Part shown: piece by piece, positions 12,680-37,822 of the stretch
Layout of the letters: each line of letters starts with the position of its first letter
Position numbering within the stretch: position 1 is the first letter of the stretch
Origin: Nitrospira sp.
GTDB lineage: Bacteria > Nitrospirota > Nitrospiria > Nitrospirales > Nitrospiraceae
Direction of reading: 5' to 3'
Length of the DNA: 50,210 bases
NCBI GenBank assembly: GCA_024330925.1
Contig: JANDJK010000011.1
Location: 1 to 50,210 of the forward strand
Notes under the pieces: generated by a model
What the model was told of the DNA's origin: nothing
Database searches by the model: none
What the model saw: only the letters and a program-made list of their open reading frames with translations
Program-made: the position numbers and the translations under genes

Positions 12680-15172
12680 ATGAACCCCCAATCTGCCACT
12701 AGCCGTGAGGTTGTCACAACTCCCATTCCACCAGCCATTGCGGAGGAGATTGAAACATTTGAGACGGAGGCGCGTCGGTGTTTATCTGGTGAACTTTCAC
12801 CGGATCTCTTCAAACCCTTTCGTTTGCAGTTCGGCATCTACGGACAACGACAGCCCGGTGTGCAAATGGTGCGAGTCAAAATCCCCTTTGGGGGCATCAC
12901 GGCGAATCAACTGCGCCGCCTTGCAGACCTGGTAGATCGGTATGCGACGGGTGTCGGGCATGTGACGACACGTCAAGACATTCAAATGCATTTTGTGGAA
13001 CTGAAGAATGTGCCGACGATTATGCGGGGATTGGCCGAGGTGGGGCTCACCACGAGGGAAGCCTGTTCCAACACGGTGCGGAATGTTACGGCTTGTCACC
13101 TGGCAGGAGTCTGTCCAAGCGAACTGTTTGATGTGACCCCCTATGCCAAAACGGTGGCCTACCATCTTCTTCGTAACCCACTCAACCAAAGTTTGCCTCG
13201 CAAGTTTAAGATCGCCTTTTCTGGCTGTACCCATGATTGCGCCCTCACGCCCATTCATGACGTTGGGCTCATGGCGGTGAAGCGAGAGGATGGCGCCATC
13301 GGTTTCCGGATGGTGGCTGGTGGGGGGCTGGGGCCCTTGCCTCGGATGGCCAAGGTGTTGCGCGAATTTACGCCTATGGATGAGCTGATCCCGAGCATTG
13401 AGGCGGTGCTCAAAGTCTTTGATGCACTAGGCAATCGGAAAAACCGCCACAAGGCCCGTATGAAATTCGTCATCGACAAGTTGGGATTCGACGAATTCAA
13501 GCGACGATGGGAAGAGGCCTATGTTGCCTTAGGGTACAGCCGGCCTTCGACCCAACCGATTCGCCTGCTCGAGCATCGCGATCAACCAGTGCCACTGATC
13601 ATGCCGACCAGAAACGGAGCTTCTTCTGTTGCCGGCCATTCTACCAATGGGCGGCAGGATGCTGGTCACAACTCTCTTTTTGAAATCTGGAAGCGAAGTA
13701 ACGTGATTCCGCAAAAACAAAAGGGCTATGTTACGGCGGTGATCAGGCTGTGTATGGGGGACATCACAGTGGATCAGATGCGGGCGGTGGCGGATTTAGC
13801 CGAACGGTATTCGAACGGCAACCTTCGCACGACAATCACTCAAAATCTCGTTGTTCGCTGGATTGCGGAGGATCAGATCGAAGCGTTCTATCACGACCTT
13901 GTTGCGTGTGGACTGGCAGAACCCGGAGCCGACCGGGTGGAAGACATCATCGCTTGTCCGGGTACCGATAGCTGTGGCTTGGGTATTACGTCATCGAAGG
14001 GAATGGCCAGAGCATTGGCGGAATTGTTCCCATCTGGTCGGGTGCCGGAGGATCTGATCGGCGTCAACATCAAGATCAGTGGCTGTCACAATTCTTGTGC
14101 CCAGCATCACATCGCAACGATTGGTCTTCACGGTGTCGGCAAGCGGATGGGCGACCACACGGTGCCCATGTACGAACTTCACTTGGGAGGACGAGTGAAT
14201 GGCACGGCGAAGATTGGACAATTGACCGTCAAATTGCCGGCCAAGGCGGTACCGGCCGCCATTGCCCATTTGCTCGCGGTCTATCGGCGGGATCGCAAGA
14301 TCGGTGAGAATTTGCCAACGTTCATCGATCGTGTGGGGAAACATGTTTTGAAAGACGAGCTAATTCCTTACACCATCGTTCCAACATACGAAGAAGACCC
14401 GACGTTTTACTACGATTGGGAGGGGGAAGCACCCTTTGTGCTGGAGGACCATGGGCCGGGTGAGTGCGCAGGTGGTGCGCTGGAGATGATCGAAAACGGC
14501 ATCCTTGAAGCTGAGCAGGAACTCTACGTGGCGAGGCTCCATGTCGAGAAACATCAGTATGCGATGGCGGTCAACAAGTCGTATCGAGCGGTCTTGGCGG
14601 CGGCGAAGGCCCTGTTGGTGACCGAAGGGCTTGATCCTTCTACCGATGCCGAGACGTTCCGTGAGTTCGATAACCGGATTGCCCAGAAAGGTATTGTGCC
14701 GGCCCTCTACCGGAATCTTGCTGGCAAGATTGGCGATCTGGGGAGCAAGGAAAATACGGAGCAGTTTGCGAGAGAGAAAATGGTCTTCGCAAAGGGATTT
14801 GTCGATGTCTGCCGAGCTGTCACGGAACAGATGGGGAAAGACCTCAAGCTGACTCCCCTGGCCTCTGTTGCGGAGACCGTCGTCACGCCCGCGCTTGTGG
14901 CGGAAGAGTCCTTGCCCACGTTGTCGGCTCCAACCAGTGCTCCCGTGTATGATCTGCGAGGGGTTGCCTGTCCCCTGAACTATGTCAAAACCAAGCTTCG
15001 ACTGGAAATGATGGAGGCGGGCGAGCGATTGGAGGTTTGGCTGGATGCCGGAGAACCAATCAGGAATGTGCCAATGAGCTTAAAGAATGATGGGCACAAG
15101 GTGTTATTGCAAGAGCCATTAGAGCCGGAGGCGCTGCACTATCGTGTGGTGGTGGAAAAGGTGGGGGAATAA
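12680..15172 (+). CDS. Siroheme/iron-sulfur sulfite (or nitrite) reductase fused to a helical HEPN-like domain and a TusA domain
   Basis: An 830-residue protein. Residues ~40-560 are the two-fold repeated ferredoxin-type sulfite/nitrite reductase core. The C-terminal half has the siroheme-[4Fe-4S] ligands Cys426/Cys432 (CPGTDSC) and Cys469/Cys473 (CHNSC). The N-terminal half also keeps a complete set, Cys139/Cys145 and Cys183/Cys187, which is usually lost in this family. Residues ~595-720 form a helical HEPN-like region (KSYRAVLAAAKALL). Residues ~755-828 are TusA-like with the DLRGVACP motif (Cys764). Given its neighbours it most likely reduces sulfite to sulfide, and the TusA tail may take up a sulfur intermediate. 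GGAGAG lies 8 bases before the ATG. Confidence 0.9.
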   Translation: MNPQSATSREVVTTPIPPAIAEEIETFETEARRCLSGELSPDLFKPFRLQFGIYGQRQPGVQMVRVKIPFGGITANQLRRLADLVDRYATGVGHVTTRQDIQMHFVELKNVPTIMRGLAEVGLTTREACSNTVRNVTACHLAGVCPSELFDVTPYAKTVAYHLLRNPLNQSLPRKFKIAFSGCTHDCALTPIHDVGLMAVKREDGAIGFRMVAGGGLGPLPRMAKVLREFTPMDELIPSIEAVLKVFDALGNRKNRHKARMKFVIDKLGFDEFKRRWEEAYVALGYSRPSTQPIRLLEHRDQPVPLIMPTRNGASSVAGHSTNGRQDAGHNSLFEIWKRSNVIPQKQKGYVTAVIRLCMGDITVDQMRAVADLAERYSNGNLRTTITQNLVVRWIAEDQIEAFYHDLVACGLAEPGADRVEDIIACPGTDSCGLGITSSKGMARALAELFPSGRVPEDLIGVNIKISGCHNSCAQHHIATIGLHGVGKRMGDHTVPMYELHLGGRVNGTAKIGQLTVKLPAKAVPAAIAHLLAVYRRDRKIGENLPTFIDRVGKHVLKDELIPYTIVPTYEEDPTFYYDWEGEAPFVLEDHGPGECAGGALEMIENGILEAEQELYVARLHVEKHQYAMAVNKSYRAVLAAAKALLVTEGLDPSTDAETFREFDNRIAQKGIVPALYRNLAGKIGDLGSKENTEQFAREKMVFAKGFVDVCRAVTEQMGKDLKLTPLASVAETVVTPALVAEESLPTLSAPTSAPVYDLRGVACPLNYVKTKLRLEMMEAGERLEVWLDAGEPIRNVPMSLKNDGHKVLLQEPLEPEALHYRVVVEKVGE

Positions 15173-15210
15173 TAGGTGTCCCAGGCGCCTAAGAGAAGGA
15201 GAAGGATGCC

Positions 15211-15927
15211 ATGGCGGTGAGTGATCCGGGAACTCTGGTGGCACAGCTCCGATCATGGGGGGAGTCATTCGAATCGAAGACGCCCCAGGACGTGCTCGCT
15301 GCTGTCATCGAGCGGTATGAACCGCGCATTGTGCTCGCCTGTAGTTTTGGGGCGGAAGATGTAGTGTTGGTAGACATGATTCAGCGGATCAATCCTTCCG
15401 TTCCATTGTTTTACCTGGATACAGATTTTCTCTTTCCCGAAACGTACGAAACGAAAGATCGCATCATCAACCGATATCGACTGAAGCCGACACAGGTGAT
15501 TGAGGTGAAGCCGTCGCTGACGCCAGCTCAACAAGAGCAGCGGTACGGAGAGGCCTTATGGAAAAGGGATCCGGATCTTTGTTGCCGATTGCGAAAAGTT
15601 GAACCACTCATCGACGTGCTCAAGTCATTCGATGCGTGGATTACCGGCATTCGCCGCGACCAGGCTCCCTCTCGGGCCCAGGCCGGTCTCATCGAATGGG
15701 ATGCCAAGTTTGGTCTCGTGAAGGTCAATCCGTTAGCACGATGGACGTGGAGCGATGTGTGGACTTACATCACCCTTTATGAAGTTCCCTACAATTCTCT
15801 CCATGATCGAAACTATCCCAGCATCGGATGCGTCCACTGTACCAAGCCAGTGAAGCCGGGCGAAGATTTGCGATCCGGTCGGTGGCAGGGCCTGGCCAAG
15901 ACAGAGTGTGGTCTCCATCAGACGTAG
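15211..15927 (+). CDS. cysH: Adenylyl-sulfate (APS) reductase, iron-sulfur CysH type
   Basis: A 238-residue reductase producing sulfite and AMP. The nucleotide-binding start is SFGAEDVVL (45-53). It has the four-cysteine set Cys124-Cys125 and Cys207/Cys210 that binds a [4Fe-4S] cluster in APS-using enzymes; PAPS-specific E. coli-type CysH lacks it. The catalytic cysteine is Cys233 in the ECGLH ending. APS should therefore be the substrate, making a separate APS kinase step unnecessary. AAGGAG lies upstream of the ATG. It is 38 bases after the sulfite reductase and 2 bases before the next gene. Confidence 0.94.
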   Translation: MAVSDPGTLVAQLRSWGESFESKTPQDVLAAVIERYEPRIVLACSFGAEDVVLVDMIQRINPSVPLFYLDTDFLFPETYETKDRIINRYRLKPTQVIEVKPSLTPAQQEQRYGEALWKRDPDLCCRLRKVEPLIDVLKSFDAWITGIRRDQAPSRAQAGLIEWDAKFGLVKVNPLARWTWSDVWTYITLYEVPYNSLHDRNYPSIGCVHCTKPVKPGEDLRSGRWQGLAKTECGLHQT

Positions 15928-15929
15928 CC

Positions 15930-16991
15930 ATGGCATTTCAGGACATCCTTGCCAAAATTGCCAAAGGGCCCAAAACGTCCAAGGACTTGACGTGGGACGA
16001 AACCAAACAGGTAATCAAGGCTCTGGTCGAGGGGGAGGCGAGTCCCCTTCAGGTGGGGGCTTTTTTGATTGCCATGCGAGTCAAGTCAGAGTCGGTGACA
16101 GAGCTGGCCGGCATGACGGCGGCAGTTCGGCAGTATGTGCCCCCCCTAGCGATTCCGAAAAATCTCGCGGTAGTCGATATTCCGACTTATGCCGGCAAAC
16201 AGGAGACATTCCATGCAATGGTGGCGTCTTCGATTGTCGCTGCCGCCGCGGGAGTCATAGTATTGATGCACGGCTATGACGGAATTCCCGGTAGGTCAGG
16301 CAGTGCCAGTGTACTGAAGGCTCTGGGGATTCCTGTGGACCAGAGCCCGCAGGTTGTCACAGAGGAATTGCTGAGCAAGAACTTTGCGTATCTGGACATT
16401 GGGATCTATCATCCGGCGGTCAATCGATTCTTGGATATGCGGCAGGAGTTGGGGGTTAGAACCGTCTTCCATCCCATTGCCAGACTCCTCAATCCGGCCC
16501 GTGCTTCTGCTCAGGTGGTAGGGCTCTCGCATCCTCCGCATTTTGAAAAAACGGCGGAAGCCTTGCGCATGCTTGGATGCCCAAGGGCGCTAGTTGTTCG
16601 GGGTATTGAGGGGGAACCAGAACTGTCACTTGCCGGAGTCACAAGGGTGTTGGAATTGAGAGACGAACGAATCACGCCCTTGGGGGTGAGCCCCAAGGAT
16701 TTTGGCCTCTCCTTTGGGTCTTCACGAGACATGGCGGGTTTTCCCGCCTCTCAACGAGAGAAGGAGGCAGACTTGTTGCGCCGCATTCTCCTTCATCAGG
16801 TGCAGGGGGGTGCTAAGGAGTGGGTGCTGATGAATGCCGCCATGTTGCTCTACCTAGCCGGGAAGGGACCGTCACTTGCGGCCTGTTACCCGCTAGCGAA
16901 AACGGCCTTGGAAGGAGGGGCTGCGGCCCGCAAATTAGAAGAGTTGATTCAGGAACCGGTAGCTACCAAGGTGGAGAGCGGCCAAACGTGA
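15930..16991 (+). CDS. TrpD2-like glycosyltransferase family 3 protein in the sulfur operon
   Basis: A 353-residue relative of anthranilate phosphoribosyltransferase (TrpD/TrpD2, YbiB group). The N-terminal helical domain ends with [18 protein letters not shown], typical of the family. The glycine-rich phosphoribosyl-pyrophosphate loop region is altered ([17 protein letters not shown] where TrpD has a GTGGD-type loop), while the later [13 protein letters not shown] resembles the family's second conserved block. No other tryptophan genes are nearby. Members of this side branch bind nucleic acids in some bacteria; I infer no specific reaction. ATG 15930 begins 2 bases after the cysH stop, so it is co-translated with sulfate-assimilation genes. 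Confidence 0.8.
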
Positions 16992-17025
16992 GAGAGTTGA
17001 TCGAAACAAGAGAAAGGGCAGAGCG

Positions 17026-17823
17026 GTGAAACATCTGCGTCGGTTGGAAGATCAAAGTGTGTACATCCTACGAGAGGCCTACAAACACTTCGACAATCTC
17101 GCTATGTTGTGGTCGATTGGCAAGGACTCGACCGTCCTCTTGTGGTTGGTTCGGAAAGCGTTTTTCGGCCATGTCCCGTTTCCGCTGATCCATATTGATA
17201 CCAGCTACAAGATTCCCGCCATGATTGAGTACCGCGATCGGTTGGCTCGTGAATGGCGGTTGAATTTAGTCGTGGGGCAAAATAAACAGGCGTTGGCGGC
17301 GGGAATGAACTACACAATGGGACGCGATGTCTGTTGCACTGCGCTCAAGACCCAGGCGTTGAAAGATCTGATTGACGAAAAGGGCTACACTGGCATCATT
17401 CTGGGCGTGCGAGCTGATGAGGATAGCACGAGAGCCAAGGAACGGTACTTCTCTCCGCGTGATAAGCACGGGGATTGGGATTTTCGGGACCAGCCTCCTG
17501 AGCTGTGGGATCAATTCAAGACGACGTTTCCGCCGGGCACTCATATTCGTATCCATCCGCTGCTTGATTGGACCGAAATCAACATCTGGGAGTACATCAA
17601 GATAGAAAATATTCCGTTTATCGATCTCTACTTGGACAAGGGGGATGGCACCCGTTACCGGAGCTTGGGGTGTGCGCCGTGCACAATGCCTGTCAAGTCC
17701 ACTGCCAAGACGGTGGATGACATCATAGAAGAACTGCGGGCGACTACGGTTGCGGAACGGGCCGGTCGGGCTCAGGATGCAGGGCGCGGCATGGAGATGC
17801 TGAGAAAGAAAGGGTATATGTAA
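17026..17823 (+). CDS. cysD: Sulfate adenylyltransferase subunit 2
   Basis: A 265-residue small subunit of ATP sulfurylase, an ATP-pyrophosphatase fold enzyme making APS from sulfate and ATP. The PP-loop is [12 protein letters not shown] (about 30-41), followed by the conserved [28 protein letters not shown] and [15 protein letters not shown]. It is shorter than the ~300 residues of E. coli CysD. The GTG at 17026 overlaps the stop of a 13-codon GTG frame starting at 16988 inside the trpD2-like gene's end, which may couple translation. Its last base overlaps the cysNC start (TAATG). Confidence 0.94.
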
Positions 17824-19694
17824 TGAGCGGGGTGGTAACGACGACAGGCCAGGGCCTGGTTGTTTCCGGGGCGGAAGAACATTTCAACATCGTCATCGTG
17901 GGTCATGTGGATCACGGCAAATCTACATTGGTCGGCCGTCTGTACGCAGAGACGGGGTCGTTGCCGGAGGGCAAACTAGAAAAGGTCCAGGCCATTTGTC
18001 GCCAGCAAGGGAAGGAATTCGAATATGCCTTTCTGTTTGATGCGTTTTTGGAGGAGCAAGAACAGGGCATCACCATCGACACGGCACGGACCTTTTTCAC
18101 CTGGAAGGGACGGCAGTACATCATTATTGATGCGCCGGGCCACAAGGAATTTCTCAAGAACATGATCACGGGAGCAGCAAGGGCCGAGGCAGCGCTTCTG
18201 GTGATTGATGCGTGGGAAGGGGTTAAGGAACAGTCTAAAAAACACGGCTATCTGCTCTCGCTGTTAGGGGTCCGTCAGTTTGCGGTGGTCGTGAACAAGA
18301 TGGATATGGTTGGTTATCGGCAGGATGTCTTTGCTGGTATTGAGAAAGAATATCGGGCGTTCTTGCAACAATTCGGTGCGGTGCCGGAACGGGTCATTCC
18401 GGTCAGTGCCAAGTTCGGCGACAATATCGTCTATCATAGCCAGGCCATGCCGTGGTATGAGGGACCAACCGTTCTGGATCTGCTCAGTTCGTTCAAAAAG
18501 GAGACGGCTTCTGCCGATCAACCGCTGCGATTTCCCGTGCAGGACGTCTATAAGTTCGATGTACGCCGCATCATCGCAGGTCGCTTAACTGCCGGTCGGT
18601 TGCGGGTCGGTGACTCCTTACTCTTTTCTCCTTCCAATAAACGAGCCAATGTCAAATCGATCGAGGCGTTCAATGTCGAACCACCGCCGATGAGCGCCGA
18701 GGCGGGTCAATCTATCGGAATTACTCTGGACGAACAGATTTTTGTGGAGCGGGGAGAAATCGCGACCCACCCCGGCAACCTGCCCCACGTCTCCACATCG
18801 TTTAAAGCCAACATCTTTTGGCTGGGCAAACGGCCGCTGGAGCGGAAACGAAAGTATGGGTTGCGGATTGCTACCAAGGAGGTCGAATGCGAAGTGGTGG
18901 CGATTCATCGCATCATTGACACGACGGATTTGAATCAACAACAGGATGGGACGTCAGTGAACCGGAACCAAGTGGCTGAGCTCACCATCAGGACCAAGTC
19001 TCCCATCGCTTTTGATATCGCTTCGTCGTTCGAAGCCACCGGCCGATTTGTTCTGGTTGATGAGTATGACATTTCGGGTGGCGGTATTGTGACAGAAATG
19101 GTGCCCGATGAACAGGAATCGTTGCGGGAGGAGGCACGCCGGCGAGATTTTTCCTGGGTCAAGGGCGAAGTCAGCGTAGAAGACCGAGCCAAACAGTACG
19201 GACACCGTGCCGCCGTTGTGCTTTTTACTGGGGGGCGGCATACAGGCAAGTCACTGTTGGCTAGAAAATTGGAAGGACGGTTGGTTGCGGAGGGACGGCA
19301 CGCGTATCTCTTGGACGGAGAGAATCTGCGTCGAGGGCTCGATGCCGATTTGAGTGAAGAGGAAAAAGGCCTCACTGCCGAAATGGCTCGTCGGTATGGG
19401 GAGGTTGCAAGACTATTGATTGATACCGGATTGATCGTAGTGTCTACCACGAATCCTTTTGGACTCGCGTACAGGGAAGCGTTAGAGGCCATCAGAACGC
19501 TCGTGCATCCAGCACCAGTGATTGCCGTGCATGTGAGCAAAACTGCCGAGGAGCCTCCGCCTGACACTGATGTCGTGCTGAGTGGACCGGTGGATCTTGA
19601 CGCGGCGATCAAGCAGGTTATGGAGGCACTCAAACATCGGCGTGTATTGGACGAATCGCTTAACGCCAAACCGACCCCGCAATATTCCATTTAA
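17823..19694 (+). CDS. cysNC: Sulfate adenylyltransferase subunit 1 fused to a diverged APS kinase domain (CysNC)
   Basis: A 623-residue fusion. Residues ~20-440 are the GTPase subunit that drives ATP sulfurylase: GHVDHGKS (27-34), DAPGH (103-107) and NKMD (158-161), then the EF-Tu-like beta-barrels. Residues ~465-600 are related to APS kinase: P-loop GGRHTGKS in place of the usual GLSGSGKS, and [11 protein letters not shown] in place of LDGDNVRHGL. The later part is degenerate, with [14 protein letters not shown] where the canonical FISPFR block is expected. As CysH here is the APS-using type, the kinase domain may be inactive or serve another role. It ends the sulfur operon. Confidence 0.92.
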
Positions 19695-20371: not shown

Positions 20372-21055
20372 ATGAAATTTGTTTGCCTGGCCTGTGAAAC
20401 ATATATGACGCTGGAAAAGGTGGAAAAGCCGGAAGAGGGATCGCTCGGTGTTTTTTTTGTTTGCCCCTCCTGCAATGCCAGATTCTCAATGGTTACCAAT
20501 GCTGGCGAAACCAACATGATGAATGTGTTGGGGCTCAAACTGGGTGCCCGTGCCGAGTCGGCGGATCCGACCCTTGCGTCCTTAGCTGACAAAATTCAGA
20601 AGGCCAAAGCAGTGGGCACTGCCGGAGTGTCCAGTGAGGCAAAGACAACCAGTGGCTGTCCATTTTCGGCTATGGTTGCAGAGATGGGGTTGGCCGGATC
20701 GGGCAAGTCGGCCAATGGTGGCGCATCGGAATTCACGTGGACTCCCGATGCCAAAGAAAAACTGGATCGCCTACCTTCCTTTGTCAGACCCATGGTGCAG
20801 AGCAGTGTGGAAGCCTATGCCCGCAAGCAGGGGATCAAGATCATCACGCTACAAGTGATGGACGACTCCAAGCATGATTCCCCGAGTGACCTGGTGTGGT
20901 CCCGCGAGGCTGAACAACGATTAGAGAATATTCCCGATTTCATTCGTCCAATGGCTCGCCGGGAGATTGAACGAGTGGCCCGAGAACGAGGCCTGCAGAC
21001 GGTGACTGCCCAAGTCATGGACGAGGCTAAGGAAAAGTTCCTCAAATTTATGTAG
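20372..21055 (+). CDS. Zinc-ribbon protein with two PCP_red-type repeats
   Basis: A 227-residue soluble protein. Cys5, Cys8, Cys31 and Cys34 form a probable zinc ribbon. A linker with an isolated Cys96 leads to two tandem repeats (about 121-165 and 174-222), each with a [FV]-x-W-[TS]-x-[DE]-A start, a [LI]-P-x-F-[VI]-R-P-M core and a final T-x-Q-V-M-D. This pattern is the C-terminal domain of the light-independent protochlorophyllide reductase B subunit (PCP_red), but no ChlB body or other chlorophyll gene is present. The relative at 35005 carries four repeats. The role is unknown. AGCAAAGGAGCAAGCG upstream holds an AAGGAG ribosome-binding site. Confidence 0.85.
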   Translation: MKFVCLACETYMTLEKVEKPEEGSLGVFFVCPSCNARFSMVTNAGETNMMNVLGLKLGARAESADPTLASLADKIQKAKAVGTAGVSSEAKTTSGCPFSAMVAEMGLAGSGKSANGGASEFTWTPDAKEKLDRLPSFVRPMVQSSVEAYARKQGIKIITLQVMDDSKHDSPSDLVWSREAEQRLENIPDFIRPMARREIERVARERGLQTVTAQVMDEAKEKFLKFM

Positions 21056-31948: not shown

Positions 31949-33658
31949 ATGGGGATAGCAGCGAAAGGCAGTGAAGAGCAGTTGGATCGCGACACATTGA
32001 CTGCAATGTACGAGGAAACGTTCCGCAACTTTGAGGAAGGGACCATCACCGAGGGACGGGTCGTTGCTTTGACCAAAGACAAGGTGGTGGTGGATATTGG
32101 TTATAAGTCTGAGGGGATGATTCCCAACGACCAGTTCTCGCCAGAGGAGCTCGCCAATCTCAAGGTCGGTGATAAATTGCAGGTCTACATCGAAGAATGC
32201 GAGGACGCAGAAGGGAATCTTGTGCTCTCAAAAGAAAAAGCTGACAAGATGAAGATCTGGGAGGAACTCGAACGACTCTATAAAGAAGAGAAGAGTATCG
32301 AGGGCAAGGTGATTTCCCGCATTAAAGGCGGCATGATGGTCGATATCGGCGTCAAAGCGTTCCTGCCTGGCTCGCAGATCGATCTTCACCCCGTTCGCGA
32401 CCTCGATGCGCTGGTCGGGAAAACCCTCCAGTTGAAAATTATCAAGATCAATTATCGACGGGGGAACGTTGTGGTGTCTCGGCGTGTGCTGTTGGAGGAA
32501 ACGAGAGATAAAAAACGGCAGATGACGCTGGCAAATCTCAAGGAAGGGCAGCTTATTGAAGGCACAGTCAAGAACATTACCGACTATGGTTCGTTCATCG
32601 ATCTCGGGGGGATCGATGGCTTGCTTCATATTACCGACATGTCGTGGGGACGGATTGGGCACCCATCGGAGATGTTCTCGGTTGGTGATAAGGTGGAAGT
32701 GACCGTGCTCAAGTATGATCGCGAAACGGGTCGCATTTCGCTGGGGCTAAAACAAAAAAGTGCTGATCCCTGGACCAATGTGGCGACCAAATATCCCGTG
32801 GGTAGCCGGGTGCGGGGCCGCGTCGTGAGTCTGACTGACTATGGGGCGTTCGTTGAGCTCGAGCCGGGTGTAGAAGGACTGGTTCACGTCTCTGAGATGT
32901 CGTGGACGCATGAGATTAGGCATCCGTCCAAGGTGGTGGGAGTGGGGGATCAGGTGGAGGCCGCCGTGCTGAATGTTGATCCTGCAAACAGGAAGATTTC
33001 CTTGGGCATGAAACAGACCGCTCCTAATCCGTGGGACATGATCGAGACCAAATACCCCGTCGGCACTAAAATTGAGGGAAAAATCAAAAGCTTGACGGAT
33101 TTCGGCGCCTTTGTGGGGATGGACGAGGGTATCGATGGGTTGATTCACATTTCTGATATGTCATGGACCAAGCACATTAAACATCCCTCTGAACTCTTCA
33201 AAAAGGGGCAACGGGTAGAGGCGGTGGTGTTGCGGATTGACAAGGAAAAGGAGCGGCTGTCACTGGGGTACAAACAATTGACCCGTGATCCGTGGGAAGA
33301 TGCCATCCCCTCTCGCTACCATGTCGGTGATTCAGTGGTCGGCAAGGTCAGCAAGGTCGCCGATTTTGGAATTTTTGTCGAATTGGACGGCGAAGTGGAG
33401 GGATTGATCCATGTCAGCGAGACGGGCTTGGATCCCCATGTTAAACTTGAAGATAAATTCAAGGTGCAAGACAGTGTAACAGCCAAGATCATCAAAATTG
33501 ATCGGGAAGAGCGAAAGATTGCGCTCAGTTTACGGGATCACCAGCTTGATGTTGAGCGTAAGGAGGTTGAGGAGTACCACGCAACCCAAGGCATGCCAGA
33601 TCAAAGTCTGGGCCGGACAGCCAAGCAGAACAGGAAGCAATCACAGGCCGTCGAGTAA
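31949..33658 (+). CDS. rpsA: 30S ribosomal protein S1
   Basis: A 569-residue protein with six S1 RNA-binding repeats, the full length of the proteobacterial-type S1. Repeats 3 to 6 show the strong pattern G-x3-x-LTDYGAFVEL...GLVHVSEMSW...HPS, for example near 32560, 32820, 33090 and 33350. The first two repeats are diverged and contact the ribosome, the rest bind mRNA upstream of start codons. It lies 59 bases after plsC. An imperfectly loopable repeat follows at 33688-33703. Confidence 0.97.
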   Translation: MGIAAKGSEEQLDRDTLTAMYEETFRNFEEGTITEGRVVALTKDKVVVDIGYKSEGMIPNDQFSPEELANLKVGDKLQVYIEECEDAEGNLVLSKEKADKMKIWEELERLYKEEKSIEGKVISRIKGGMMVDIGVKAFLPGSQIDLHPVRDLDALVGKTLQLKIIKINYRRGNVVVSRRVLLEETRDKKRQMTLANLKEGQLIEGTVKNITDYGSFIDLGGIDGLLHITDMSWGRIGHPSEMFSVGDKVEVTVLKYDRETGRISLGLKQKSADPWTNVATKYPVGSRVRGRVVSLTDYGAFVELEPGVEGLVHVSEMSWTHEIRHPSKVVGVGDQVEAAVLNVDPANRKISLGMKQTAPNPWDMIETKYPVGTKIEGKIKSLTDFGAFVGMDEGIDGLIHISDMSWTKHIKHPSELFKKGQRVEAVVLRIDKEKERLSLGYKQLTRDPWEDAIPSRYHVGDSVVGKVSKVADFGIFVELDGEVEGLIHVSETGLDPHVKLEDKFKVQDSVTAKIIKIDREERKIALSLRDHQLDVERKEVEEYHATQGMPDQSLGRTAKQNRKQSQAVE

Positions 33659-33734: not shown

Positions 33735-34637
33735 ATGGACGAAGAGGGTGACCCGAGAGCAAAACCTCAGCGGCGCCGATGGCTGAGGACCATTGTGCTG
33801 ACGCTGATGGTTGGCGTGGGACTGATGGTGGTCATCAGCGCGCTCTTCCCCGATTTGGATCTTAGCGGAGGGGATCGTATCGCGTTGATTCGAGTGGAGG
33901 GGATTATCCTGGACTCTGAGGAGACCATTGGAGAGTTACGGCGTTTCGGCGAACATCCAGCCGTGAAAGCCATTGTCTTGCGTATCGATAGTCCAGGGGG
34001 GGGAGTGGTTCCTTCACAGGAAATCCATGACGAGATTAAGCGAATTCGTGAGAAAAACAACAAAGCAGTGGTTGCTTCGATGGGGAGTGTGGCGGCGTCG
34101 GGTGGTTATTACATCGCGGTGGCAACGGACCGGATCGTTGCCAATCCCGGCACGTTAACCGGGAGCATTGGGGTGATTATGGAAATGGCCAACATTGAGG
34201 GCTTGCTACAAAAAATCGGTGTGGAAGGAGTTGTGATTAAAAGCGGGAAGTACAAGGATGTCGGCTCCCCGCTCCGGAAGATGAGCGACGAAGAGCGGCA
34301 GTTGCTGCAGAACGTCATGGATGACGTGCATCAACAGTTCATTGAGGCTGTGGCGGAAGGACGAGCCATTGCACTTCCCGATGCCCAAGCCTTAGCGGAC
34401 GGAAGAATTTTTACAGGGCGTCAAGCGAAAGACGCCAAATTGGTTGACGAACTGGGTGATTTGGAAGATGCGATCCAGCTGGCGGCTGAGATGGTCGGCA
34501 TAGAAGGCCCGCCCAAAGTCGTTGAGCCGCGCCGACGGTTTTCATTACGCCAATTGTTGGACTCAAAGACCAACGCGATCTTGCCACCGTTTAATTTCCA
34601 CCCAGGCATTAGTTTGAAGTATTTAATGGTATTCTAG
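33735..34637 (+). CDS. sppA: Signal peptide peptidase SppA-type serine protease
   Basis: A 300-residue membrane protease of the S49 family, the short single-domain form. An N-terminal transmembrane helix follows basic residues (TIVLTLMVGVGLMVVISALF). The ClpP-like fold shows VLRIDSPGGGVVPSQEI, the catalytic serine in SMGSVAASGGYYIA, SIGVIMEMAN and the lysine of the Ser/Lys dyad in KSGKYKDVGSP. It degrades leftover signal peptides in the inner membrane. It sits between rpsA and the HU-like gene. Confidence 0.94.
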   Translation: MDEEGDPRAKPQRRRWLRTIVLTLMVGVGLMVVISALFPDLDLSGGDRIALIRVEGIILDSEETIGELRRFGEHPAVKAIVLRIDSPGGGVVPSQEIHDEIKRIREKNNKAVVASMGSVAASGGYYIAVATDRIVANPGTLTGSIGVIMEMANIEGLLQKIGVEGVVIKSGKYKDVGSPLRKMSDEERQLLQNVMDDVHQQFIEAVAEGRAIALPDAQALADGRIFTGRQAKDAKLVDELGDLEDAIQLAAEMVGIEGPPKVVEPRRRFSLRQLLDSKTNAILPPFNFHPGISLKYLMVF

Positions 34638-34702
34638 CGGCGCGCTGACAGCGTGCGTTGCCGGGCGGCGGACAAACTGTCAATGATCCAAAGGGGGAGG
34701 AC

Positions 34703-34981
34703 ATGACAAAGGCCCAGATCATCGAACAGGTTTCAGAACAGGTCCCCACATTGACGAAACGGCAAGCCGAAGTCGTCGTCAACACGATTTTCGATTGTGT
34801 GCGGGATTCGCTTAAGAATGGGGGAAAGACGGAAATTCGAGGATTCGGCAGCTTCCGACTCCGTGCGCGACGGATGAAAGAGGGCCGTAATCCAAAGACC
34901 GGGGCAACGGTCGCAGTACCGGCCAAACGAGTACCGTTTTTCAAGGCGGGTAAGGAGTTGAAGGAACTCTTGAACAAGTAA
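34703..34981 (+). CDS. HU/IHF-family DNA-bending protein
   Basis: A 92-residue nucleoid protein. It begins MTKAQIIEQVSEQ and has the family signature GKTEIRGFGSFRLRARRMKEGRNPKTG, where the beta arms carry the conserved proline and basic residues that insert in the minor groove. ATG 34703 is preceded by AAGGGGGAGG, an excellent ribosome-binding site. The position after cmk and rpsA is that of ihfB in proteobacteria; I cannot separate HU from IHF-beta by sequence alone. The PCP_red gene follows after 23 bases, likely in the same transcript. Confidence 0.92.
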   Translation: MTKAQIIEQVSEQVPTLTKRQAEVVVNTIFDCVRDSLKNGGKTEIRGFGSFRLRARRMKEGRNPKTGATVAVPAKRVPFFKAGKELKELLNK

Positions 34982-35004: not shown

Positions 35005-36009
35005 ATGCCGGATTGGCCACAGACGATGACGACAGACATCAGTTGGACCGCCGATGCCCTGGCACGATTGGAACGGGCTCCAACCTTTCTCCGCGGCATG
35101 GTACGGCGCCTCGCTGAGAAAAAAGCGCGCGAGGCGGGCTATCGTGAGATCACGAGCGCGCTTCTCGATCAGTTTAAAAACGAAATGATGGGAGGTGCAG
35201 GTGGAAACGCTCAAGCGTGGGTGGAGGAGTCGGGCTCAGTGGGGAGAATGCCTGCTCGGCTTCCATGGACAGCTGCTGCGCAAGAACGACTTGCCGAGGT
35301 GCCCGAATTCATGCGCCCGATGATCAAGCAGATCACGGAGGAAATCGCGAAGGAGCGTGGACACCTGGAGGTGAACGTCGAACTCTATGAAAGAGTTGAA
35401 GCGCTGGGGGATTCGTCCGAAAGCGCAGCAACGATGGAGTGGACGGATGGAGCGTTGGCTCTGCTGAACGAAAAGCTCAAACAGACTCCGCCGCTTGCGG
35501 CAGACTTGGTGGCCGATATGTTGAGGCGGGATGCGGAGCAATGGGCCAAGCAGCAACAGAGGGATCGCATCGATGAGACCGTTCTTCGCGCGGCGTGGGA
35601 GGCTCCTCTTCGCCGGATCGCCTGGACCGACGAGGCGTGGAAACGGCTTCAATCTGCACCGGATTTTGTGCGGAGCGGCATTCGGAAGGCAGCGGAGCGA
35701 AGGGCCCGGCAGTTGGGATTGTCGGAAATTGACTCCGCCCACCTGACACTGTTCCGAAATCATGCCATGATGAAAGCGGTCAAACGCATTCGTGCGTTTG
35801 GGTACCGCGAGCTCACCTTTGAGGCGTTTGAAACGGCCTTGCAGAAGACCAAACGACTGCAAGGAAACGAGCAGGCGCAGAAACGGCTGCAGGAGATTCG
35901 CAACCATTTTGCCGATCCTTCGACCAAGAAACCAGAAGGAGAAACATTAGGAGCCGAGTTGATGGCCCGCTTCCGTCAGTATCTCAAGGGAGAGGGGCCA
36001 CTGGAGTGA
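35005..36009 (+). CDS. Protein of four PCP_red-type repeats
   Basis: A 334-residue protein built almost wholly from repeats resembling the C-terminal domain of light-independent protochlorophyllide reductase: about 13-58 (ISWTADALARLERAPTFLRG), 86-130 (LPWTAAAQERLAEVPEFMRP), 144-198 (MEWTDGALALL, diverged) and 204-252 (IAWTDEAWKRLQSAPDFVRS). Repeats 1, 2 and 4 keep the W-T-x-x-A start and the P-x-F-[LMV]-R core. The tail is Lys/Arg-rich. No chlorophyll gene is present. The shorter relative at 20372 adds a zinc ribbon. It is close behind the HU-like gene, so the two may be co-expressed. GGAAGAG precedes ATG 35005. The function is unknown. Confidence 0.82.
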   Translation: MPDWPQTMTTDISWTADALARLERAPTFLRGMVRRLAEKKAREAGYREITSALLDQFKNEMMGGAGGNAQAWVEESGSVGRMPARLPWTAAAQERLAEVPEFMRPMIKQITEEIAKERGHLEVNVELYERVEALGDSSESAATMEWTDGALALLNEKLKQTPPLAADLVADMLRRDAEQWAKQQQRDRIDETVLRAAWEAPLRRIAWTDEAWKRLQSAPDFVRSGIRKAAERRARQLGLSEIDSAHLTLFRNHAMMKAVKRIRAFGYRELTFEAFETALQKTKRLQGNEQAQKRLQEIRNHFADPSTKKPEGETLGAELMARFRQYLKGEGPLE

Positions 36010-36105: not shown

Positions 36106-36426
36106 TCAGGGAGCCGTCTGCTGCTTGGGCCAGAATTTGTGTCTGATTTGAGGTAAGGGTTCGTTTTCAAAATTAGGAATGTCATAGAGACAGCGGTCAA
36201 TGGTTGCTACTTCCTCCTCCGTCAACTCTAGAGTGACCTTCTTTTTCCAAAATTGATCGAGAGTGAAGTAATCGCCCGATTGCGGCTTTTCTGCCAAGAG
36301 AGCTTTCATTTTTTGAAAGCCGGGTGTGTCAACGCCACTGATGCGTCCCTTGTTGCGATCGTGGCACCAGCGGAGCACTTCTGCGATTCCATACATGGTG
36401 ATATCGATCTTTACTGTATCGCCCAT
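36106..36426 (-). CDS. Conserved-looking hypothetical protein
   Basis: A 106-residue soluble protein that I do not recognise. It begins MGDTVKIDITMYGIAEVLRWC and has mixed helix/strand character with a charged middle (KKKVTLELTEEEVATIDRC). There are two cysteines. The ATG at 36426 has a strong GGGGAGGA upstream, which makes it a real gene. It converges on the PCP_red gene and diverges from the FG-GAP gene. A short palindrome AGAACG-A-CGTTCT (36029-36041) lies in the convergent gap. Confidence 0.7.
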   Translation of the reverse strand: MGDTVKIDITMYGIAEVLRWCHDRNKGRISGVDTPGFQKMKALLAEKPQSGDYFTLDQFWKKKVTLELTEEEVATIDRCLYDIPNFENEPLPQIRHKFWPKQQTAP

Positions 36427-36610
36427 CGAGATCCTCCCCTTCACCAAAGAAACTATATTATAGCTCAGTCTTGAACTGAAATTCAAAGGCTCCGGTTGCG
36501 TTGTCAGAAACGGGACTCCTCTCGTATACTGCGTTTACGTGATGATGGGAGGAATGGAGCAAACGGGCAAGAGAGTCGGAGGACAAGAGCCAGGAAGGAG
36601 AGGGGAGTGT

Positions 36611-37822
36611 GTGAGACTTCAGTGTCATGCTCGCAAGAGGTCCGTCAGGCAAGCGACCGAAGGTTCGGGGAGATCCTCTGTCCTCAACTGGTTCTGCGCC
36701 ATCACTCTCTTCATACCCACAGGGGGGTGGTTCCTCGGATGTTCGAAGACGGAACCGTATAATCCTCCGGATCTTTTTTACTATTTTGCCAGTTACAAAG
36801 TCGGCAAGAATCCGACCACCATCACGGCGACGGATCTGAACCATGATTCCTTGACGGATCTCATCACGACCAACATTGCAAGCGATACGTTGTCAGTGTT
36901 GTTGGGCAATGGAGACGGAACATTTCAGGAGCAAATTCAGTTGCATGTCTGCCAGGAGCCACGTTCGCTCGTTGTCGGCGATTTCAACCATGACCGTCAT
37001 GAGGATGTCGCCATTGCCTGCTCAGGGGGAGATGAGGTTCAAATTCTCCTCGGTCATGGAAACGGCCGCTTTGCAGAAGGTTTCCGCTATCCAGTCCATC
37101 GCACGCCTGTTTCGGTGGCCAGCGATGACTTAAACGGCGATCAGCACCTTGATTTGGTTGTGGCCTTGCGTAATGACAAGATCAAGGTTTTCCTCGGCGA
37201 GGGGAACGGTGAGTTGCGGCCTGGTGCGCAGTACGAGTATGGGGACACTCCCACGTCTGTCACCCTCTCCGATCTTGATGGAGACGGAAAATTGGATCTG
37301 ATTGTTACCAACGGGGGGCCGATGTCGAAAGGGGTCTCGATTTGGTTGGGCAATGGCGATGGTACCTTTCGAGATCCCAAAGACTATCCGGTTGGCAAGC
37401 GGCCGTTGAATGTCACGCTGGCCGATTTTAACAATGATCATCAAAAGGATCTGCTGGTGATTAACGGAGAAAAAGACAGCATCACGACATTGCTTGGAAA
37501 CGGCAACGCAACGTTCAGGCTGGGAAGCAACTCGGGGGCCAATGCGGGACCGAATTATGGGCTGGCGCGGGACTTCAATGGGGATCACTTCGTAGATGTG
37601 GCTGTCGTCAATCTTCAATCAAACGATCTTTCTATTCTATTCGGAAAAGGAGATGGGACGTTCCATTATCCTCCTCGCAATTACCGTACACAAGCTGGGC
37701 CGTTTGCCGTGACATCGTTCCGTGCGACCACCATGGGAACGGAGGAGCCTGGATTGGCCATCGCTGATAATGGGAGTGGGAGTGTTTCGATTTTCCTCCA
37801 TCGAGGGCTGAAACCGTCGTAA
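36611..37822 (+). CDS. FG-GAP/VCBS repeat lipoprotein, probable beta-propeller
   Basis: A protein of about 403 residues. I start at GTG 36611, ten bases after AAGGAG; in-frame ATGs at 36539-36545 are alternatives. A hydrophobic segment (VLNWFCAITLFIPTGGWFLGC) ends in a possible lipobox cysteine. The body holds about six or seven repeats of roughly 50 residues with a D-[FL]-[ND]-x-D-x-x-x-D-[LV] calcium-binding loop followed by LLGNGDGTF. This is the FG-GAP/VCBS pattern that folds as an integrin-like propeller. It is probably an outer-surface or periplasmic binding protein; the ligand is unknown. Confidence 0.85.
   Translation: MRLQCHARKRSVRQATEGSGRSSVLNWFCAITLFIPTGGWFLGCSKTEPYNPPDLFYYFASYKVGKNPTTITATDLNHDSLTDLITTNIASDTLSVLLGNGDGTFQEQIQLHVCQEPRSLVVGDFNHDRHEDVAIACSGGDEVQILLGHGNGRFAEGFRYPVHRTPVSVASDDLNGDQHLDLVVALRNDKIKVFLGEGNGELRPGAQYEYGDTPTSVTLSDLDGDGKLDLIVTNGGPMSKGVSIWLGNGDGTFRDPKDYPVGKRPLNVTLADFNNDHQKDLLVINGEKDSITTLLGNGNATFRLGSNSGANAGPNYGLARDFNGDHFVDVAVVNLQSNDLSILFGKGDGTFHYPPRNYRTQAGPFAVTSFRATTMGTEEPGLAIADNGSGSVSIFLHRGLKPS

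Follow-up and report, generated by a model that had tools for sequence, protein, structure and literature searches.

The locus analysed here raises the question of what a protein made of repeated PCP_red domains, encoded directly behind a gene for an HU/IHF-family protein, does in Nitrospira. The window (the whole stretch analysed, 50,210 nucleotides) covers positions 1 to 50,210 of contig JANDJK010000011.1 in the Nitrospira sp. assembly GCA_024330925.1. The gene in question (35005..36009, + strand) was recognised from its open reading frame (ORF) and a PF08369 (PCP_red) scan and encodes a cysteine-free protein of 334 amino acids, referred to below as the array. A sequence-only reading of the window had described the array as four PCP_red-like repeats with a very basic tail, and had suggested co-expression with the HU-like gene and a possible role on DNA or RNA or as a scaffold of a complex. 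We put at about even odds (roughly 0.5) a different reading, in which the array is a free-standing copy of the C-terminal half of a radical-SAM/SPASM protein and likely a trans-acting, non-catalytic subunit or adaptor of the genome's radical-SAM system, which is predicted to work on a heme-type (tetrapyrrole) cofactor.

Repeats, tail and the fused counterpart

The whole array matched PF08369 in four stretches (157.8 bits, E 6.5e-47, gathering score 32.5), and the four repeats proposed earlier, the third and fourth included, all aligned to the family. Repeats 1 (residues 14-58, 35044..35178) and 2 (residues 88-130, 35266..35394), scanned as separate pieces, gave E-values of 1.9e-16 and 3.6e-15, and repeat 4 (residues 207-248, 35623..35748), where the most conserved core begins, gave 1.4e-13. 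Repeat 3 (residues 146-197, 35440..35595) is divergent with a longer insertion, and its match was the weakest, being significant (E 3.7e-4) at 20.9 bits, below the whole-protein gathering score. All four lie on the + strand. In repeat-versus-repeat alignments, scored by 500 shuffles per pair, repeats 1, 2 and 4 aligned mutually at z 12-23, while repeat 3 aligned with repeat 4 at z 4.5 (0 of 500 shuffles as good), with repeat 1 at z 3.7 and with repeat 2 at z 2.3 (15 of 500 as good). PF08369 was the sole family found by a Pfam scan at E<=1, which detected neither a nitrogenase component 1-type domain nor a radical-SAM/SPASM domain.

The repeats are followed by a conserved helical tail module (residues 253-334, 35761..36006, + strand), in which no Pfam family scored above its cut-off and the PF08369 scan gave no PCP_red match. 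A fifth, half repeat at residues 252-284 was considered and is not claimed, as it aligned with repeat 1 at z 4.5 but with repeat 4 at 1.1 and with repeat 3 at -0.5.

The tail is also present in radical-SAM proteins to which the array is fused. Taxonomic ranks are given here relative to the window's genome (order Nitrospirales, class Nitrospiria, phylum Nitrospirota), and 295 genomes of the phylum were sampled, comprising 98 of the order, 15 others of the class and 182 of the rest. In a Nitrospirota family outside the class (f19), three loci (L126-L128) encode radical-SAM/SPASM proteins of 706-730 amino acids whose C-terminal half is the array, with matches to the array model across that half at E 1e-79 to 1e-82. 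These fusion genes are preceded by a gene encoding a universal-stress-protein (USP)-PCP_red protein and followed by a protoporphyrinogen oxidase gene, which scored 290.7 bits against a cut-off of 97.85 at L126; at L127 and L128 the PPOX-like gene was identified by eye. An array fragment at L141 occurs in an f19-like setting. A database search with the f19 fusion retrieved 1830 proteins at E<=1e-20, and all 120 listed contain PF08369. Organism names accompanied 19 of those 120 and belonged to two Nitrospirota, sixteen proteobacteria (mostly sulfur oxidisers) and one member of the Polarisedimenticolaceae; named fusion carriers among the matches listed include Thiodiazotropha, Sedimenticola, Thiolapillus, Thiothrix and Nitrosomonadales. 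Only the radical-SAM half was matched in a plasmid collection, where none of the 132 records covered 80% of the query. Since in many other bacteria the array makes up the second half of a radical-SAM enzyme, it is likely a detached partner of such an enzyme rather than a DNA-acting protein.

Free and fused arrays align over their full length through the four repeats and the tail, and the fused ones, annotated only as 'radical SAM protein', are 33-43% identical to the window's protein. They differ in that the array is a separate gene in the order, and the radical-SAM protein, encoded at another place in the genome, has a single PCP_red domain of its own. When 24 free and 19 fused arrays were placed in a joint tree, the fused ones all fell to the same side of one branch (support 99/98), with the Nitrospirota fusions adjoining the free arrays; the tree is unrooted and is read without a direction of splitting or fusion. 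In these 43 arrays, 62 columns are conserved in at least 90% of the rows, and 35 of them fall in repeat 4 and the tail; the supposedly basic tail is thus a deeply conserved module. Repeat 4 and the tail together also end the USP-PCP_red protein in families f13 and f37 (L124 and L125). Fusion, clustering and module exchange together provide good support for a putative partnership between the array and the radical-SAM protein.

PCP_red is known as the C-terminal domain of ChlB/BchB, a subunit of the protochlorophyllide reductase DPOR, with solved structures 2kru and 2l09. Compared with ChlB/BchB, the array has four PCP_red copies and a conserved tail and lacks the nitrogenase-type oxidoreductase domain, and it fell far below the equivalog cut-offs for that subunit (82.5 against 490.35 for TIGR01278 and 92.5 against 509 for NF002789). 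Databases nevertheless label four-domain PCP_red proteins 'PCP reductase family protein' or 'light-independent protochlorophyllide reductase', despite their having no reductase domain. PF08369 has also served as a phototrophy marker (PMC12815261). A literature search, which covered few subscription papers or preprints, found no work on these PCP_red proteins.

Linkage of the array inside and outside the order

The HU/IHF-family gene lies directly 5' of the array (34703..34981, + strand, PF00216 E 1.3e-30), with an ATG at 34703 and a listed ORF start of TTG at 34658. As the sequence-only reading had noted, 23 bases separate its end from the array start, and a scan of this gap showed no + strand promoter-like or terminator-like site. 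The same adjacency was found at 122 of 123 Nitrospira-group loci (80 named records and 43 from order genomes, with species overlap between the two collections). At the exception, L022, the HU ORF is missing and the last 30 HU residues are retained 5' of the array. The gene order aroA-cmk-plsC-rpsA-sppA-HU-array recurs in this group at every locus long enough to show it, apart from small ORF-calling exceptions; in the window it includes an rpsA-like gene (31949..33658, + strand, named from reading the sequence without a profile scan) and a gene for an sppA-like S49 peptidase (33735..34637, + strand). The cmk-rpsA-HU-PCP_red order, whose conservation the sequence-only reading had proposed to check, is therefore conserved within the Nitrospira group. 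The HU linkage was not seen outside the order, an HU gene adjoining the array at none of the 13 array loci of the class there.

That distribution bears on the possibility that the array is a histone-like partner of HU that binds DNA or RNA, shapes the nucleoid and is co-expressed with the HU gene. The likeness to HU/IHF and histone-fold proteins consists of the adjacency within the order and a loosely similar arrangement of helices. The charge pattern of DNA or RNA binding was not seen, since the 24 free arrays, nearly all without cysteine, average a net charge of -1.0 (range -8 to +5). The description of the tail as very basic was overstated, as the tail carries 16 lysine or arginine against 11 aspartate or glutamate residues (net +5, isoelectric point 9.8) and the whole protein has a net charge of +2 (isoelectric point 8.7). 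With no HU neighbour at the loci examined outside the order and arrays near neutral in charge, a DNA or RNA role deduced from the linkage is not supported, and we regard the nucleoid explanation as very improbable. A second HU-like gene was observed in family f4 (L137:3503-3757, 34% identical), three genes 5' of the array and upstream of Mrp, zinc-PCP_red, haem-oxygenase-like and array genes.

Outside the order the array is instead linked to other PCP_red genes. At 10 of the 13 class loci there, another PCP_red gene lies within two genes of the array and encodes a radical-SAM/SPASM-PCP_red, a tandem USP-PCP_red or a zinc-ribbon-PCP_red protein. Six of the loci (families f6 and f9) have USP-PCP_red, radical-SAM-PCP_red and array genes in that order on a single strand, with the radical-SAM gene overlapping the array or separated from it by at most about 100 bases. 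Four others (f4, f5 and f7) read DUF420, Mrp-type ATPase, zinc-PCP_red, haem-oxygenase-like and array. In a non-random sample, drawn from the top-scoring PF08369 matches whose open frames measured 454-481 amino acids, USP-PCP_red, radical-SAM-PCP_red and a CopD-like gene were co-located at 12 of 12 loci (L173-L184).

Where an organism was named, the radical-SAM fusion and USP-PCP_red proteins came mostly from chemolithotrophs (Thiodiazotropha, Sedimenticola, Mariprofundaceae, Nitrospinota and Sulfuricaulis), with organism names available on only 19 of 120 listed rows for the fusion and 14 of 120 for USP-PCP_red. One USP-PCP_red relative (P0277) is named by a source 'nucleotide-binding universal stress UspA family protein/histone H3/H4'. 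The correspondence of the array to half of a radical-SAM protein provides a first concrete handle on array function, and also on the radical-SAM/USP/PCP_red gene set common to sulfur, iron and nitrite oxidisers.

The probable partner enzyme and a possible role in heme chemistry

The window's genome encodes a radical-SAM/SPASM protein of 454 amino acids with a single PCP_red domain (L012:4145-5509). The best curated profiles for its radical-SAM part were NirJ2 (331.5 bits) and the heme b synthase AhbD (315.1 bits), and the other radical-SAM-PCP_red proteins scanned reached 300-343 bits, the values being 303-343 for four proteins in one scan and 300-319 in a second. NirJ, NirJ2 and AhbD are the best-scoring curated families for the partner enzyme, yet these scores stay below the cut-off of 500. 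These enzymes are not known to carry a PCP_red domain.

One explanation is that the array and the radical-SAM-PCP_red protein together act as an AhbD-like coproheme decarboxylase, that is, a replacement heme b synthase. Searches of 98 class genomes, 64 of them in the order, found HemF in six and true HemN in four, with neither in the order, a gap which suggested that the radical-SAM system might be the missing heme b synthase. An AhbD-like radical-SAM match (1e-40) in 89 of the 98, the protoporphyrinogen oxidase adjoining the fusion in f19 and the reported co-localisation of ahbD with hemY, hemH and hemQ (PMC10548856) agree with this. However, the ChdC/HemQ family (PF06778, which covers ChdC/HemQ and chlorite dismutases) was found in 89 of the 98 and in all 64 of the order, so that heme b can be made in an ordinary way and the idea of a replacement is weakened. 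HemF and/or HemN are retained in families f4 and f5, which nonetheless possess the array and the radical-SAM-PCP_red protein, and the AhbD cut-off was reached in none of the 98 genomes. A replacement heme b synthase is accordingly judged highly unlikely. The lack of HemF and true HemN hits together with presence of the ChdC/HemQ family suggests that Nitrospirales would make heme by a coproporphyrin-dependent route.

Another explanation would keep the adaptor and drop the tetrapyrrole: PCP_red could be a general oligomerisation or stress adaptor tying USP, radical-SAM and zinc-ribbon proteins together, with a peptide or lipid, for example, as substrate. The diversity of other PCP_red carriers (USP, rubredoxin-like and zinc-ribbon proteins) fits such a role, as do the nearest solved structures to the radical-SAM half, those of the peptide-modifying SPASM enzymes SuiB, PqqE and SkfB; its matches among predicted and solved structures together were to SPASM enzymes in general. 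On the other hand, the NirJ2 and AhbD profiles scored far above every peptide-maturase profile, and the protoporphyrinogen oxidase, haem-oxygenase-like, DUF420 and bd-like oxidase neighbours lean to heme and respiration. We consider this general role rather doubtful, if less so than the nucleoid and heme b synthase explanations.

Part of that neighbour evidence comes from the window's genome, in which a protein of 175 amino acids with two PCP_red domains adjoins DUF420 and cytochrome-bd-like oxidase genes. The two-PCP_red gene was clustered with both at 8 of 8 loci, and 53 of 60 genomes had a match to it at E<=1e-41. The DUF420 proteins are presumably CtaM-like. The Nitrospiraceae cluster, located at G000:C118 (L013:5200-12504) and L185-L192, was observed to contain a methyltransferase-like gene, DUF420, the two-copy PCP_red gene, a membrane protein gene, the cytochrome-bd-like oxidase and two SUMF1-like genes; at L191 the PCP_red gene was placed by a separate search and not by the BLAST of the loci. 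Four such bd-like genes have been described in N. moscoviensis (PMC6606698).

Returning to the array as a detached subunit of the radical-SAM system, several observations weigh against it besides the sub-threshold AhbD and NirJ2 scores and the ChdC/HemQ family. Within the order the array is at least 15 kb or contigs apart from the radical-SAM gene. A PCP_red neighbour was absent at 3 of the 13 class loci outside the order (L139, L157 and L158) and at three loci of f17, a family outside the class in which the array stands alone. Nor is the pairing strict, as nine of the 98 class genomes had no AhbD-like match at 1e-40, among them four that possess a full array (G018, G187, G232 and G264); G232 and G264, both of family f8, are 99% and 96% complete. 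The predicted structure of the fusion (predicted template modelling score, pTM, 0.53) yielded no docking evidence. Claims on surface charge or docking from predicted structures were set aside because confidence was too low, the array having a predicted local distance difference test score of 68 and pTM of 0.54, and the fusion 74.9 for the former score.

If the adaptor reading holds, the array would contact its partners physically, docking by PCP_red-PCP_red or tail contact on the one PCP_red domain that the radical-SAM protein and the tandem USP partner each possess. It may then hold or present the substrate, by analogy with the PCP_red end of protochlorophyllide reductase subunit B, a tetrapyrrole enzyme; a tetrapyrrole substrate is the weakest part of the proposal. 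In the order, the array gene was probably relocated into the cmk-rpsA-HU region and would borrow expression there. A broader and quite tentative extension, which we think unlikely as it stands, is that PCP_red, with a histone/AAA-lid-like fold, serves as a plug-in adaptor wiring one shared, undescribed multi-protein machine of chemolithotrophs. This machine might comprise the four-domain array, a tandem USP sensor, a radical-SAM enzyme that modifies heme and a zinc/rubredoxin protein, with the Nitrospira array as its detached hub, and might supply respiratory oxidases with a tetrapyrrole or metal cofactor, so far unrecognised, that it builds or inserts.

Conservation and other PCP_red genes

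An array match at E<=1e-10 was found in 128 of the 295 phylum genomes, including all 98 of the order (one split across two contigs), 14 of the 15 other class genomes (one a contig-end fragment; class total 112 of 113) and 16 of the 182 outside the class. The closest named record, a Nitrospira metagenome-assembled genome (L015), shares 92% protein identity, and a 30-row alignment (A1, chosen among 120 listed matches of 1952) showed about 69-92% full-length identity to the window's protein; the 50 rows of a second alignment (A2) were chosen among 120 of 1830. The array gene thereby belongs with the most strongly conserved of the uncharacterised genes in nitrite-oxidising Nitrospira.

The number of PCP_red copies was 8-14 in every order genome, which establishes the lineage-specific expansion suspected from the window, and 3-13 in each of the 15 other class genomes. 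At least one copy, and mostly 1-3, occurred in 51 of the 182 genomes outside the class, while the domain was absent from 131 of the 295 phylum genomes sampled. Among 14 control genomes it was found in Synechococcus elongatus only.

Five genes of the window's genome encode PCP_red domains. Besides the array and the radical-SAM and two-domain proteins described above, there is a protein of 700 amino acids that combines three PCP_red domains with two USP domains and one rubredoxin-like domain, and the second PCP_red gene of the window (20372..21055, + strand), whose product has a CxxC-type, zinc-ribbon-like N-terminus and two PCP_red domains. Relatives of the latter sit two genes from the array in f4, f5 and f7. 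No haem-oxygenase-like partner was found with PF14518 in the window's genome, which is 90.6% complete.

The block before the second PCP_red gene (12680-19694) resembles, from a by-eye reading, sulfite/nitrite reductase and cysH/cysD/cysNC-type sulfate assimilation genes. On the 3' side of the array are a small gene (36106-36486, - strand) and a gene for an FG-GAP repeat protein (36539-37822, + strand), which follow the array in the window's family and not in the other families of the order.
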